Assembly: GCA_000724175.1 (NCBI GenBank)
Contig: JPGV01000036.1
Span: forward strand, 1-45,979
Reading direction: 5' to 3'
Source: [Candidatus Thermochlorobacteriaceae] bacterium GBChlB
Lineage (GTDB): Bacteria > Bacteroidota > Chlorobiia > Chlorobiales > Thermochlorobacteraceae
DNA: 45,979 nucleotides
Position numbers and translations under genes: made by a program
Part shown: positions 15,605 to 20,864 of the stretch, piece after piece
Position numbering within the stretch: position 1 is the first letter of the stretch
Layout of the letters: the number at the start of each line of letters is the position of its first letter
The notes under the pieces: model-generated
What the model was told of the DNA's origin: nothing
The model's database searches: none
The model's input: the letters and a program-made list of their open reading frames with translations, nothing else

Positions 15605-16825
15605 ATGAGAGTCATCACTTTTACGGGAAAGGGCGGCGTCGGCAAAACCAGCGTCGCAGCCGCAACCGCGTTACGACTGTCGGAGTTGGGATATCGAACG
15701 CTGGTGATGTCCACCGACCCAGCGCACAGTTTATCGGATTCGTTTGATGTTCAGCTCGATGGCGAACCGCGCTGCCTCAAAGACAATCTGCACGCGATTG
15801 AAGTGAACGCCTATGTCGATTTGCGCGAGAATTGGGACATCGTGCAGCGCTATTTCGGAAACCTGCTTGCAGCACAAGGTGCGGTCGGTATTATGGCGGA
15901 CGAAATGACCGTGCTGCCCGGTATGGAAGAGCTTTTTGCGCTGATGCGCGTGCGGCGTTACAAAGAGTCGGGCAAGTATGATGCGCTCGTGCTGGACACC
16001 GCGCCCACAGGTGAGACGCTGCGCTTGCTCTCGCTGCCTGAAATGCTCACATGGGGAATTAAAATGGCGCGCACCGTCGAGAAGTTCATCTTAAAGCCCG
16101 TCGCGCGTCCGCTCTCGAAGTTCTCAGATAAACTGTCGGCAATGGTGCCGCCCGAAGAAATGATGGCAACGGTCGACGACATGTTCGCCGAACTCGACGG
16201 CGTGAAGGAAATTCTCACAAACAGCGAAACATCGTCGGTGCGGCTTGTGATGAACGCCGAAAAAATGGTGATTAAAGAAACGATGCGCGCACTGACATAT
16301 TTGAATCTCTATGGCTTCAAAGTCGATATGGTAACGGTCAATAAACTGCTCGCCGACGACGAGGATAGCGGTTATCTCGAAAAATGGAAAGGCGTACAGC
16401 AAAAATATCTGCGTGAAATCAGCAGCGCGTTTGAGCCGTTGCCAATAAAAAAAGTGCCGCTGTTCGATGATGAAATCGTGGGCTTTGCTGCCCTGTCCAA
16501 ATTGGCGGAAGTGATTTACGCCGATGCGAATCCTGCCGAGATGATGTATCAAGAATTGCCCGTCAAATTTAATCGGCACGACGATGTGTGCGAAGTGATG
16601 ATGCGCTTGCCGTTTGCCAAGCCCGAAGAAATTGACGTGTGGGTTTCGGGCGATGAACTCTTTGTGCAGTTGGGCAATCAGCGCCGCGTCATGACGCTGC
16701 CAATGTCGCTTGCGGGCATCGAGCCGGGCAACGCGAGTTTCAAGGGTAAGTGGCTCACGATTCCGTTTGTTACAGCGGCGTCGGCCGCCAAAGCCGCCGA
16801 AAGCTATCAAGCGCGCGCGGTGTAG
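15605..16825 (+). CDS. ArsA/Get3-family ATPase with HSP20-like C-terminal domain (first copy)
   Basis: This 406-residue cytoplasmic ATPase has the ArsA/Get3 core: deviant P-loop GKGGVGKT (8-15), switch I STDPAHSLSDSFD, an ADEMTVLPGMEE segment and switch II DTAPTGETLRLL. Residues from about 320 onward form a small beta-rich domain (EVMMRLPFAKPEEIDVWV, then DELFVQLGNQRRVMTLP) like the ArsA_HSP20 domain found in some bacterial ArsA homologues. The paired cysteines used by arsenite ArsA and the CxxC of Get3 are missing, and no arsB or arsR is nearby, so arsenic export is unlikely. ATG at 15605 is chosen because it sits just before the P-loop. The next gene follows 75 bases later on the same strand. 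A targeting or assembly role for envelope proteins is my inference. Confidence 0.9.
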   Translation: MRVITFTGKGGVGKTSVAAATALRLSELGYRTLVMSTDPAHSLSDSFDVQLDGEPRCLKDNLHAIEVNAYVDLRENWDIVQRYFGNLLAAQGAVGIMADEMTVLPGMEELFALMRVRRYKESGKYDALVLDTAPTGETLRLLSLPEMLTWGIKMARTVEKFILKPVARPLSKFSDKLSAMVPPEEMMATVDDMFAELDGVKEILTNSETSSVRLVMNAEKMVIKETMRALTYLNLYGFKVDMVTVNKLLADDEDSGYLEKWKGVQQKYLREISSAFEPLPIKKVPLFDDEIVGFAALSKLAEVIYADANPAEMMYQELPVKFNRHDDVCEVMMRLPFAKPEEIDVWVSGDELFVQLGNQRRVMTLPMSLAGIEPGNASFKGKWLTIPFVTAASAAKAAESYQARAV

Positions 16826-16900
16826 TAGGGTTGACGGACGTGAGTAAGTATCAACTTAGTCAAATGCAGTCAACACTTTTCAATTTCAAGGAGAACAGCC

Positions 16901-17338
16901 ATGACGGAGACATATCAAAAACTTCGTGAAGAATTCAAGCAATTGGATTTGCCAAGTCGACTGGGCTTTCTGGTCGAGGCAGGTGCATTGACGACGCAAT
17001 CTGCCATTGTTGGCACGCTGAACGTCATCGGCGACGTGGTTGAAGGCGTTACAAGCGCGACAGGGTCGCTGGCGCAGTCGGTCGGCATTTCATCTGCATC
17101 GGTGGATTCGGCGTCGCAAACGGTGAATCGGATTGTCATTACGGTTAAAGATGCGGGCAAAGCAGCAGGCACAGTTGTCAAAGATGTCGCCAAGAGTGTC
17201 GACGATGTAGCGGTGAATGTGGCAAAAAGCGTTGGCGACGCGACCGTGAAAGCCGCCGAAGTTGCCGGCGACGTCATCAACACAGTTCAAAAAACGGCGT
17301 CGGAGATGGCGAAACGCGACGAGAAAGACGAGAAATAA
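16901..17338 (+). CDS. Putative chlorosome envelope protein with 11-residue amphipathic repeats
   Basis: This 145-residue protein has no signal peptide and no catalytic motif. Residues 10-30 (EEFKQLDLPSRLGFLVEAGA) resemble the start of the next gene's product. A weakly hydrophobic stretch (33-65) follows. Residues 82-136 form five contiguous 11-residue repeats, starting VKDAGKAAGTV and VKDVAKSVDDV, then a charged tail (AKRDEKDEK). Such 11-mers form long amphipathic helices in perilipins, synucleins and LEA-type proteins that lie on lipid surfaces. A strong ribosome-binding site (AAGGAGA) precedes the ATG. Its position two genes before csmA suggests a CsmC/CsmD-type envelope protein of the chlorosome monolayer. 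That role is inference; the repeats are seen directly. Confidence 0.7.
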   Translation: MTETYQKLREEFKQLDLPSRLGFLVEAGALTTQSAIVGTLNVIGDVVEGVTSATGSLAQSVGISSASVDSASQTVNRIVITVKDAGKAAGTVVKDVAKSVDDVAVNVAKSVGDATVKAAEVAGDVINTVQKTASEMAKRDEKDEK

Positions 17339-17433: not shown

Positions 17434-17781
17434 ATGCCGATGGAACAAGGGAAGTTTGGTCAGGAGTTCAAGAAAATGGACTTGGCAGAACAAGGCACAT
17501 TTTTCATTTTGGGCGCTATTGATACCGTTTTTACGACGCTGACCAACACGTTCAAAGCGGTGGCGGATACGTCGTATGATTTCGCTGACTTCACGCGCCC
17601 GGGCGCGAGCGAAAAACTTGGTGCAAAATCGCTGGACGCGATTTTGGGATTCGGCGTCAAGACCGATGCCGTCAAGCGTCCCGACGGCGAGAAGAAAGAC
17701 ATTCCGGTCAAACCTGCCGCGAAAGCCAGCACGATTCCAATTAAGAAGGTCGAGAATGGCAATGGCGGCGAAAGCGCATGA
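17434..17781 (+). CDS. Putative CsmC-like chlorosome envelope protein
   Basis: This 115-residue protein lies directly upstream of csmA, the place csmC takes in green sulfur bacteria, and is similar in size. Its N-terminus (QEFKKMDLAEQGTFFILGAIDTV) matches the pattern of the preceding protein, so the two look paralogous. The middle is amphipathic and the C-terminal third is rich in lysine, proline and alanine. It has no signal peptide, as expected for chlorosome proteins, which assemble from the cytoplasmic side. The leader AAAGGAGACACTCACT before the ATG is almost the same as that of csmA, which suggests matched strong translation. I infer CsmC from position, size and pattern; the sequence match was not tested. 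Confidence 0.6.
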   Translation: MPMEQGKFGQEFKKMDLAEQGTFFILGAIDTVFTTLTNTFKAVADTSYDFADFTRPGASEKLGAKSLDAILGFGVKTDAVKRPDGEKKDIPVKPAAKASTIPIKKVENGNGGESA

Positions 17782-17911
17782 AGAAAATTTGCGGAGCAGT
17801 TCCTGTCGTCTCGCAGCGCGTTCCGCCGCGCAGAGTAGGTCGAGCGGCAACCAATTAGAAGTAGCTGTTCCTTGCATTGTTTCAACAACTCTAAACTAAG
17901 GAGACACCACT

Positions 17912-18166
17912 ATGCCAGCAGGCGGAGGAGGCGTAATTACCGATGTGCTTGTCAGCATCGGACGCATTTCAGAATACATGTTTGAAGGGCACTGGTACAC
18001 GGGCGGTCAAATTTTCGACGCGCTTGCCAAAGGCACATTGCGCTTGAACCAAAACTTATACGGCGGCTTGACCGGCGGCGGCAGCGTGCGCGGCTCGTCT
18101 CCGTTTGCGCAATCGAGCAGCACCGCAGCGCGCGACAAAGAAATCGAGGCGCGGTTCGGTAAGTAA
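17912..18166 (+). CDS. csmA: Chlorosome baseplate protein CsmA (bacteriochlorophyll a-binding)
   Basis: CsmA forms the paracrystalline baseplate that passes excitation from the chlorosome to the FMO protein and reaction centre. This 84-residue protein is clearly homologous to Chlorobaculum CsmA: GGGVITDVL for GGGVFTDIL, then GRISEYMFEGHW, FDALAKGTLRLNQNLYG, and a GGGSVRGSSP region. H27 in EGHW corresponds to the histidine (H25) that ligates bacteriochlorophyll a. The known protein loses about 20 C-terminal residues on maturation; the cut would fall near RGSSP, leaving a tail that ends KEIEARFGK. The N-terminus is two residues longer than in Chlorobaculum. A strong leader (AAGGAGACACCACT) precedes the ATG. 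The preceding gap holds a short GC-rich inverted repeat. Confidence 0.95.
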   Translation: MPAGGGGVITDVLVSIGRISEYMFEGHWYTGGQIFDALAKGTLRLNQNLYGGLTGGGSVRGSSPFAQSSSTAARDKEIEARFGK

Positions 18167-18375: not shown

Positions 18376-19671
18376 ATGAATGTAGTCAATCTCTACACCG
18401 CGAAGCACGCCGACGCCGCGCACATTTTAGAGTTCTTTACAAAACGCTTGATGCGTGAGGGCGAATCGCCGCTTGCCGTGTTCGACGGCATTTTTTATGA
18501 GGCAAAAAACGAGCGCGTTGGCGGGTTCAGTTTCCACGACTACCTTGTCATTACCAATAAATCTGTGTATCTCTGGGCGCGCGGGATTCATAAAGATTAC
18601 CTCGACCGATTCAACTTGGGGTGCGTCTCCTTCGCTGCCAAAGAAAAAGACCGAGAGTTCGCTACGCTCGATTTGACCATCAGCCGCGAAAACAACGAGC
18701 CGATTTTCCTCATCTTCGATTACGTTCCGATTAGCGAAGTGAAAAACCTCATGCTCTTGCATGTCAACAACGAGACAGAAATCGAGTCGGCGTTTGGCAA
18801 AGCGTTTCTCGGAGAAATTCCCGACGACTTAGCTCAACGGTTGAAAGACCTATCAGGACAGCTCTTGCCGCAGCGCGAGATTCTCGTCCCCGACGAAGCC
18901 GAAGCTGCTGCCATTAAAGCCATGATGAACGGAACGCCGCCAAACGAACTTTTTGAGTTTCCAAATGCGCCGCTTTCTCCGATGCAAAGCGCCGAGAACA
19001 TCGGCGGGACAAAGATGTACGGCGACAACCTGCTCAACCAAATTCGCCAACAACGCCAGAACCAAAATTATCAAAGCGCCAATGGCAACGCCGGTCAGGG
19101 CTACTCGGCGGAATTTCTGCAAGGCGAACCGCGCTGGTCAGCGTCGTCGATAAATTCCAACCCGTTTTCAAAATTTGATGTCGTCTCGATGAAACGCGCT
19201 GAAGCCATCGTGCGTGATATGTTCAATGCGATTCCCGAAGAATATCGCAATCAAGCCAAAAAAGATTTAGAGCAAATGCCGGAGCGCTGGTCACACGCGG
19301 TGTTGGCGCTCAATGAACTGCTTGGCAACATTTCCAAAAACCGCGAAACGCAAAACTTTGTGATGCAAGTCATTGAGACGAGCGTGAAGAACGACGGCAT
19401 TTTAGGCGCGATTGCAAAGACATTTTCAACCTTCGCCGCCAGTGCGAGCGCGCAAGCCGCCGCAATGAACAGCAACGGTACAGCGAACAGTACCCCGTCG
19501 ACGCAGACGGAATCAACGCAAGGAACTCAAAACGGTGCGGCGCAAGACCGCGAACCGGATAGCAGCGCCAAACAAGCAACCGATGGAATGTTCGGTCAGA
19601 ACTTGAACGCGTCGAGCCAAAACGGGAATGGACAACGCAAAAAAATCAAGATTAAAATCGATTCGAATTGA
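18376..19671 (+). CDS. Unknown protein of the chlorosome block, possible PH-like N-terminal domain
   Basis: I do not recognise this 431-residue protein. Residues 1-150 look like a compact alpha/beta domain. One stretch, [18 protein letters not shown] followed by [10 protein letters not shown], resembles the strand pattern of bacterial PH-like domains. Residues 200-260 are rich in asparagine and glutamine ([12 protein letters not shown]), 275-370 are predicted helical, and the tail (370-431) is low-complexity Ser/Thr/Asn/Gln ending in a basic KKIKIKID strip. There is no signal peptide or membrane helix. The ribosome-binding site is AAGGAG. It lies between csmA and the second ArsA gene, only 41 bases from the latter, so a role in chlorosome assembly is inferred from position alone. 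Confidence 0.75.
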
Positions 19672-19712: not shown

Positions 19713-20864
19713 ATGCGAATTATTTTGTATTTGGGCAAAGGCGGCGTCGGGAAAACCACCGTCTCGTCAGCAACGGCAACGCAGATTGCGCGAAGCGGCA
19801 GGCGTGTCTTGATTATGAGCACCGACATCGCGCACAGCCTTGCCGACGCGCTGGGCAAAGAACTCTCCGATACGCCGATTCAAATCGAGAAGAACCTCTT
19901 TGCAATGGAAGTCAACATTCTCGCCGAGATTCGGAAAAATTGGTCGGACTTGCACGGATATTTTTCAACGATGCTCTCGCAAGATGGCACATCGGAAATC
20001 ATCGCCGACGAACTCGCCGTGCTGCCCGGCATGGAGGAAATGATTAGCCTGCGCCACCTGTGGATTGCGGCAAAATCAGGCGACTACGACGCGGTCATCG
20101 TCGACGCCGCGCCGACGGGCGAAACCATGCGGCTCTTGGCAATGCCCGACTCGTATAAATGGTACACCGAAAAAATCGGCAGTTGGCATTTGAAGACCAT
20201 CAGTTTCGCCTACCCGCTCATTCAGAAATTGATGCCGAAAAAGAACATCTTTAAGCTCATGCCCGAAGTTGGTGAACACATCAAAGACCTGCACGGCATT
20301 TTGCTCAATCCCGACATCACGTCGTATCGAATTGTGATGAATCCTGAAAACATGGTCATCAAAGAAGCCTTGCGGGCGCAAACGTATTTGAATTTGTTTG
20401 GCTATGCGCTTGATGCTGTGGTGGTCAATAAGATGTTGCCGAAGACCAGCAGCGACCCGTATTTACAGGCGCTGGCGGCGCAGCAGCAAAAGTATTACGA
20501 GAAAATCGTGAGTTGTTTTTATCCGATTCCAATTTTCAACGCAGGCTACTACGAAAGCGAAGTCATCGGTTGCGATAAACTTGCCGCAATGAGTGCCGAC
20601 CTCTTCCGCGAGAGCGACCCGATGAAAGTTTTTTACAAAGACCAACTCACGCAACAGATTTCAAAGGAGAACGACAAGTATCATTTGAAACTCTATTTGC
20701 CTAACGTCGAGATTGACCGCGTGCAGATGAATGTCAAGGGCGATGAACTGATGATAGAGGTCAACAATTTTCGAAAGAACATCGTCTTGCCAAATGTCTT
20801 GGTCGGGCGCAACACGCTTGGGGCGACGTATCAGAACGGAAAGTTGGATGTGGTCTTTTCCTAA
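19713..20864 (+). CDS. ArsA/Get3-family ATPase with HSP20-like C-terminal domain (second copy)
   Basis: This 383-residue ATPase is a paralogue of the one at 15605-16825. It shares the P-loop GKGGVGKTT (8-16), switch [14 protein letters not shown] (isoleucine replaces the usual proline of TDPAHS), [12 protein letters not shown] and switch [14 protein letters not shown]. Its C-terminus (from about 320: [19 protein letters not shown], then [17 protein letters not shown]) is again an HSP20-like beta domain. Arsenite-binding cysteine sets are absent. ATG at 19713 sits directly before the P-loop. It is the last gene of the same-strand chlorosome block and is followed by 877 bases without a clear gene. 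The two copies could act as a heterodimer, which is inference. Confidence 0.9.

Follow-up and report, generated by a model that had tools for sequence, protein, structure and literature searches.

The chlorosome envelope protein CsmC of [Candidatus Thermochlorobacteriaceae] bacterium GBChlB carries a C-terminal amphipathic segment whose core divides into five contiguous 11-residue units, and this tail is probably a helix that lies flat in the glycolipid monolayer of the chlorosome, where it would make a lipid coat. The protein is 145 amino acids long and is encoded at positions 16,901-17,338 of the forward strand of the window, by which we mean the whole analyzed stretch of 45,979 nucleotides (contig JPGV01000036.1). 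In CsmC, a conserved N-terminal domain appears to be joined through a short and variable linker to a C-terminal helix that is amphipathic and about 55-75 residues long. In addition, relatives of its N-terminal domain are encoded in Bacteroidota genomes in which csmA was not found, and these constitute the unexpected part of the analysis.

By its sequence, the product of 16,901-17,338 is the known chlorosome envelope protein CsmC, so no new protein is described here. The Pfam family PF11098 (Chlorosome_CsmC) matches its residues 1-134 at E = 6e-41, covering positions 1-137 of the 139 of the profile with 140.2 bits (cut-off 26.3 bits), and a likely ribosome binding site, AAGGAG (16,888-16,893, forward strand), lies upstream of the ATG. 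Identity to the other 17 members of an alignment drawn from across the order (A2) is 38-67%, and the named CsmC relatives come from metagenome-assembled genomes of Chlorobiales, including Chloroherpetonaceae and Candidatus Thermochlorobacteriaceae. Of 394 genomes sampled from the phylum, 87 had a PF11098 match above the cut-off, all of them within the Chlorobiales, the order to which the window belongs, and the same genome also encodes FMO (E = 1e-199). The match to the CsmC family (PF11098; the CsmC/CsmD motif family) is thus full-length, with identical length and architecture and a chlorosome gene context; nothing essential differs, and the tail repetition is cleaner than the family median. 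The CsmC family is established as a component of the chlorosome envelope, in organisms other than GBChlB itself, and this envelope is a lipid monolayer with the csm envelope proteins exposed at its surface; csmC is dispensable, but its loss changes absorption, energy transfer and growth (PMC12214013). The CsmC gene family has also been noted as a synapomorphy of the Chlorobium class (PMC10849945). The initial annotation had proposed a perilipin-like coat protein of chlorosomes. Since the family was already known from the chlorosome envelope, the chlorosome coat part of this proposal stands without being new.

The nucleotides 17,144-17,308 correspond exactly to codons 82-136 of the csmC reading frame and comprise five 11-mers without gaps: VKDAGKAAGTV (17,144-17,176), VKDVAKSVDDV (17,177-17,209), AVNVAKSVGDA (17,210-17,242), TVKAAEVAGDV (17,243-17,275) and the lowest-scoring unit, INTVQKTASEM (17,276-17,308), all on the forward strand and delimited by self-similarity and shuffle tests. 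BLOSUM self-similarity of residues 82-136 at a shift of 11 gives z = 5.97, and none of 5,000 composition-preserving shuffles matched the observed score at any of the shifts 3-22 (p < 1/5000). The wider segment 66-141 retains the signal at shift 11 (z = 4.72, p = 0.0002), and every unit is more similar to the remaining four than its own shuffles are (p = 0.018 to <0.0002). Because the register had been chosen by eye in the initial annotation, an unbiased 55-residue scan was run over the 92 ORFs of the window that encode 100 or more amino acids; CsmC ranked at the top (z = 6.5), with its best segment again starting at residue 82. The gapless repeats described in that annotation were thus recovered independently of its choice of register. 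An antisense frame over the neighboring small ORF (17,460-17,888, reverse strand; shift-11 z = 5.5), which is probably spurious, ranked second. The scan is therefore no proof by itself, and the evidence from the protein family is stronger. Among 68 distinct CsmC sequences, a shift of 22 or 11 scored best in 65, with median z values of 3.65 (shift 22) and 2.90 (shift 11), so that repetition in the family is weaker than in the CsmC of the window. Residues 71-81 (17,111-17,143, forward strand), which share the amphipathic signal of residues 71-136, were tried as a sixth, upstream repeat and rejected (in-register similarity p = 0.75); they are better described as an amphipathic lead-in helix. A recent tandem duplication of the DNA was likewise rejected, as DNA identity is only 0.51 at shift 33, where in-frame shifts average 0.35.

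The amphipathic character of this segment follows the same period. Over residues 82-136 the hydrophobicity has its maximum at 98.5 degrees per residue (period 3.655; global p = 0.0003), close to the 99-99.5 degrees found across the CsmC family, and the power at the heptad angle of 102.9 degrees is less than half of that at the peak. At 98.2 degrees per residue the phase of residues 77-136 stays nearly constant, between 331 and 8 degrees (a span of 37 degrees), and it drifts by about 60 degrees at 100 degrees per residue; with the heptad angle the drift amounts to about 170 degrees. Over some 64 residues a spectrum does not distinguish 98.2 from 100 degrees; the 11/3 geometry is favored by the repetition in the sequence together with the steadiness of the phase, not by the spectrum alone. 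In this register, positions 1, 4, 8 and 11 are hydrophobic, mostly Val or Ala, and form a hydrophobic face at the 3/11 periodicity, while positions 3, 6 and 10 hold charged or polar residues, with mainly Lys at position 6 and mainly Asp or other polar residues at positions 10 and 3. The helix core is likely to consist of the five 11-mers in a geometry close to that of a 3-11 helix.

The amphipathic 11-residue periodicity is shared by the family in an indel-free form. Indels are absent from residues 1-62 and 71-131 in all 68 sequences, and length changes are confined to the C-terminal tail and to a variable linker at residues 63-70 (17,087-17,110, forward strand), which carries insertions in 61 of the 68. 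Since residues 71-131 remain free of indels while linker and tail vary, the helical phase seems to be constrained. The N-terminal domain itself, residues 1-55 (16,901-17,065, forward strand), lies within the indel-free stretch 1-62 and is recognized by profile searches as a small-protein domain of wider occurrence in Bacteroidota.

Structure prediction is consistent with helices of low confidence. With an alignment of five sequences, AlphaFold placed low-confidence helices in full-length CsmC (pLDDT 41.9); for residues 71-145, also with five sequences, the pLDDT was 51.7, with helices at about 72-100 and 108-143 and a break at about 101-107. Given the low pLDDT and this break, a single continuous helix remains a candidate only. 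The low pLDDT values would fit a protein that is unfolded in solution and helical on lipid, but they are no evidence for such behavior. A phmmer search against the PDB returned weak matches only, mostly to designed helical repeat proteins.

Several properties of the tail resemble those of known lipid-surface helices. Residues 82-136 have a hydrophobic moment of 0.415 and are 47% hydrophobic, 0% aromatic and 27% charged, with a net charge of -1; they contain no Leu and no Pro, few Ile and Met, and several Gly, Thr and Ser. Published values, in the order hydrophobic moment, hydrophobic, aromatic and charged fraction, are 0.30, 0.47, 0.02 and 0.24 for alpha-synuclein, 0.35, 0.37, 0.01 and 0.23 for Plin3, 0.257, 0.35, 0.002 and 0.15 for Plin4, and 0.39, 0.40, 0.065 and 0.35 for apoA-I (PMC5889406 Table 1). 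The hydrophobic moment and composition of Plin3 are therefore near those of the CsmC tail, and alpha-synuclein, ApoLp-III and apoA-I share with it an 11-residue periodicity and a similar composition. Lipid-surface 11-mer helices are recognized by gapless repeats, a hydrophobic face at 3/11, a scarcity of bulky and aromatic residues, charges of both signs and a moderate hydrophobic moment, and CsmC shows all of these. As in Plin3 and Plin4, its 11-mer units are poor in bulky residues, its polar face carries both charges and its presumed target is a lipid monolayer; the lysines of Plin4, too, are clustered to one side of its polar face (PMC5889406). The helix of Plin4, however, extends over 968 residues (PMC5889406), whereas the bacterial protein has five clear units and its lipid binding is putative.

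This resemblance does not extend to homology. The complete list of Pfam matches for the CsmC of the window, taken to E = 1, contained no perilipin, synuclein or LEA profile, and neither a PAT domain nor a four-helix-bundle domain was detected in the protein. A relationship to perilipins, synucleins and LEA proteins, with which the initial annotation had compared the periodicity, is not supported. The commonest second Pfam match was ApoLp-III (PF07464), in 5 of 18 CsmC sequences (best E = 3.8e-4); the window protein reaches 15.4 bits with this profile, far below the cut-off of 36.3. Shuffled tails produced chance matches to other families at E values down to 0.0015, and to Phasin at 0.045. Homology to ApoLp-III, Phasin and Apolipoprotein was rejected, as shuffled tails match by chance about as strongly; a score below the cut-off, together with comparably strong matches of shuffles, points to resemblance and not to membership. 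The comparison therefore supports "perilipin-like" as a description of the biophysics of the tail, not of its descent. A literature search, which covered the chlorosome literature in part, found no paper tying chlorosomes to perilipin-like helices.

In the mechanism that we consider the most probable, the CsmC helix would lie flat within the glycolipid monolayer around the chlorosome, with its narrow Val/Ala face turned to lipid or pigment and its Lys, Asp and Glu residues to the cytoplasm and the adjoining CsmC helices. Many weak contacts, one set for each 11-mer, together with salt bridges between helices, could then give a coat that is reversible and cooperative, and such a coat may help to control chlorosome size and shape. 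In work of Li and Bryant from 2009, mutants without the CsmC/CsmD family reportedly have smaller chlorosomes. The sequences themselves establish the family identity, the repeats, the amphipathicity, the lack of indels and the chlorosome gene context; that the helix would fold on lipid, as well as its orientation and cooperativity, we infer.

The lipid reading is held with reserve because the same pattern also equals the core of a hendecad coiled coil. The hydrophobic positions 8, 11, 1 and 4 are spaced 3-1-3, exactly as in the a/d/e/h core of hendecad proteins, and a coiled coil or antiparallel bundle, which requires this same pattern, thus stays a live rival. CsmC would in this case oligomerize through its Val/Ala face, and its hydrophobic N-terminal domain would contact the envelope. 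The best phmmer matches in the PDB, all of them weak, are to designed helical repeat proteins, and the two-helix model of the isolated tail is compatible with a hairpin. The core of residues 82-136, however, is composed almost entirely of Val and Ala, with no Leu, few Ile or Met and several Gly, Thr and Ser interspersed, a composition that is poor for a stable coiled coil and typical of weak lipid-surface helices; in this respect CsmC differs from hendecad coiled coils, and an oligomer model is unsupported; AlphaFold, run on monomers only and with alignments five deep, gives no confident model. We regard the coiled coil or bundle as unlikely. The Val/Ala-only face disfavors it, yet the AlphaFold monomer models are of low confidence, and for this reason the lipid coat is called probable and nothing stronger.

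Less probable still is a tail that acts like CsmA, as a helix facing bacteriochlorophyll, quinone or the baseplate and binding pigment or CsmA through its hydrophobic face. The gene order is suggestive, as csmA follows csmC in all 75 loci and nothing but the small ORF, where present, separates the two genes, and CsmA itself forms a strongly amphipathic helix whose hydrophobic side carries pigment (PMC4992139). Both are small amphipathic-helix chlorosome proteins encoded by neighboring genes, but they belong to different Pfam families, BChl a is bound by CsmA, and among the chlorosome proteins only CsmA is directly associated with BChl (PMC12214013). CsmC of the window has no His in its entire length and no aromatic residues at 82-136. 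A stress or granule feature of LEA or phasin type, without a specific lipid role, is very improbable. Repeats of 11 residues are a hallmark of LEA group 3 proteins too, and marginal Phasin matches occur in 2 of 18 CsmC sequences (best 0.011), but the window protein has no LEA match at E up to 1, a shuffled tail also matches Phasin (0.045), and the gene is restricted to the chlorosome-bearing order and linked to csmA. An origin of the 11-mers in chance or in the composition of a helix rich in Val, Ala, Lys and Asp might be considered, as that scan also gave z = 5.5 for the antisense ORF over the neighboring gene. Composition-preserving shuffles never equaled the observed score, however, and the register is gapless across 68 relatives, by which this reading is refuted and its probability reduced to next to nothing.

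The gene neighborhood of csmC is conserved. Upstream of csmC lies an ArsA/Get3-type ATPase with a C-terminal HSP20 (alpha-crystallin) domain of the Get3d type (15,605-16,825; PF02374, E = 2e-105; PF17886, E = 2e-19), and downstream follow csmA, encoding the baseplate protein (17,912-18,166; PF02043, E = 1.3e-22), a conserved 431-residue protein (18,376-19,671) that matches no Pfam or NCBIfam model above its cut-off and follows csmA in 73 of 75 loci, and a second ArsA/Get3-type ATPase with an HSP20 domain (19,713-20,864; PF02374, E = 1e-82; PF17886, E = 3e-19), all on the forward strand. This order, with or without a small ORF between csmC and csmA, is the same in 75 of 75 loci, each followed as far as its stretch reaches, with some loci counted twice and two without a detected gene for the 431-residue protein. 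The small ORF, here termed ORF X (17,434-17,781, forward strand; 115 amino acids), has no Pfam or NCBIfam name; profile, alignment (A3) and gene order indicate that it has the N-terminal domain in common with CsmC but not the amphipathic 11-mer tail. A profile round that included no CsmC recovered the CsmC of the window at E = 8e-6. ORF X lies between csmC and csmA in the loci read from three families other than Chlorobiaceae (f1, f2 and f4), in f2 member L036/L044 detected only by the profile, and it was not found in the Chlorobiaceae loci read. ATPases with an alpha-crystallin domain are known as Get3d and are reported to be completely conserved in green sulfur bacteria, in a study that does not mention chlorosomes (PMC10248533). 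The Get3d ATPases that flank csmC and csmA could be candidate targeting or delivery factors for amphipathic chlorosome proteins.

Relatives of the N-terminal domain extend beyond the order. A first profile, built from the CsmC N-terminal domain and ORF X of Chlorobiales only, found ORFs in 15 of the 296 genomes sampled outside the order (E up to 0.001), against a chance expectation of about 0.3, and these ORFs share a motif of approximately Y...R..F..L...(E/D)(K/R)..FL.E(A/S)...T. A profile made from the outside sequences only found CsmC again among 2,835 ORFs at E = 1e-10 to 1e-6, and its reversed counterpart reached 0.7 at best; this test is not fully independent because the outside sequences had been chosen through the first profile. 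A joint profile matched 44 of the 296 outside genomes, from 14 families, at E < 1e-8, and more than half of these had not contributed to its building. In 17 of 20 outside loci a second small ORF then follows on the same strand, and lon adjoins several of them. Such tandem pairs (L077-L096, for example L083:4044-4683 and L084:358-927), in which the first ORF is homologous to the CsmC N-terminal domain, recall the pair of csmC and ORF X, the second ORF being like ORF X by arrangement only. No csmA was found in any of the 20 outside genomes that carry these relatives and were checked for it. Behind the domain, the outside proteins have little or no shift-11 signal (two with z > 2), and none has a significantly amphipathic CsmC-like tail. 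In Chlorobiaceae genomes the N-terminal domain profile finds only CsmC, and CsmD was not recognized. The simplest reading of these sequences is that the 11-mer tail is an addition, made in Chlorobiales, to an older domain; the alternative is that the tail was lost outside Chlorobiales rather than gained within the order.

For the biology of the chlorosome, a phase-conserved 11-mer helix offers a testable mechanism by which CsmC may hold on to the lipid monolayer. CsmC may be a pre-chlorosome domain that gained an amphipathic tail in Chlorobiales, and those Bacteroidota in which csmA is missing offer, in the relatives of this domain, a possible ancestor. Taken together, and more tentatively, CsmC could be an older small-protein domain of Bacteroidota, which persists as a tandem gene pair in non-phototrophs, joined to a lipid-coating 11-mer helix, and would then constitute a perilipin-type coat that arose independently of animals and is possibly delivered by Get3d.
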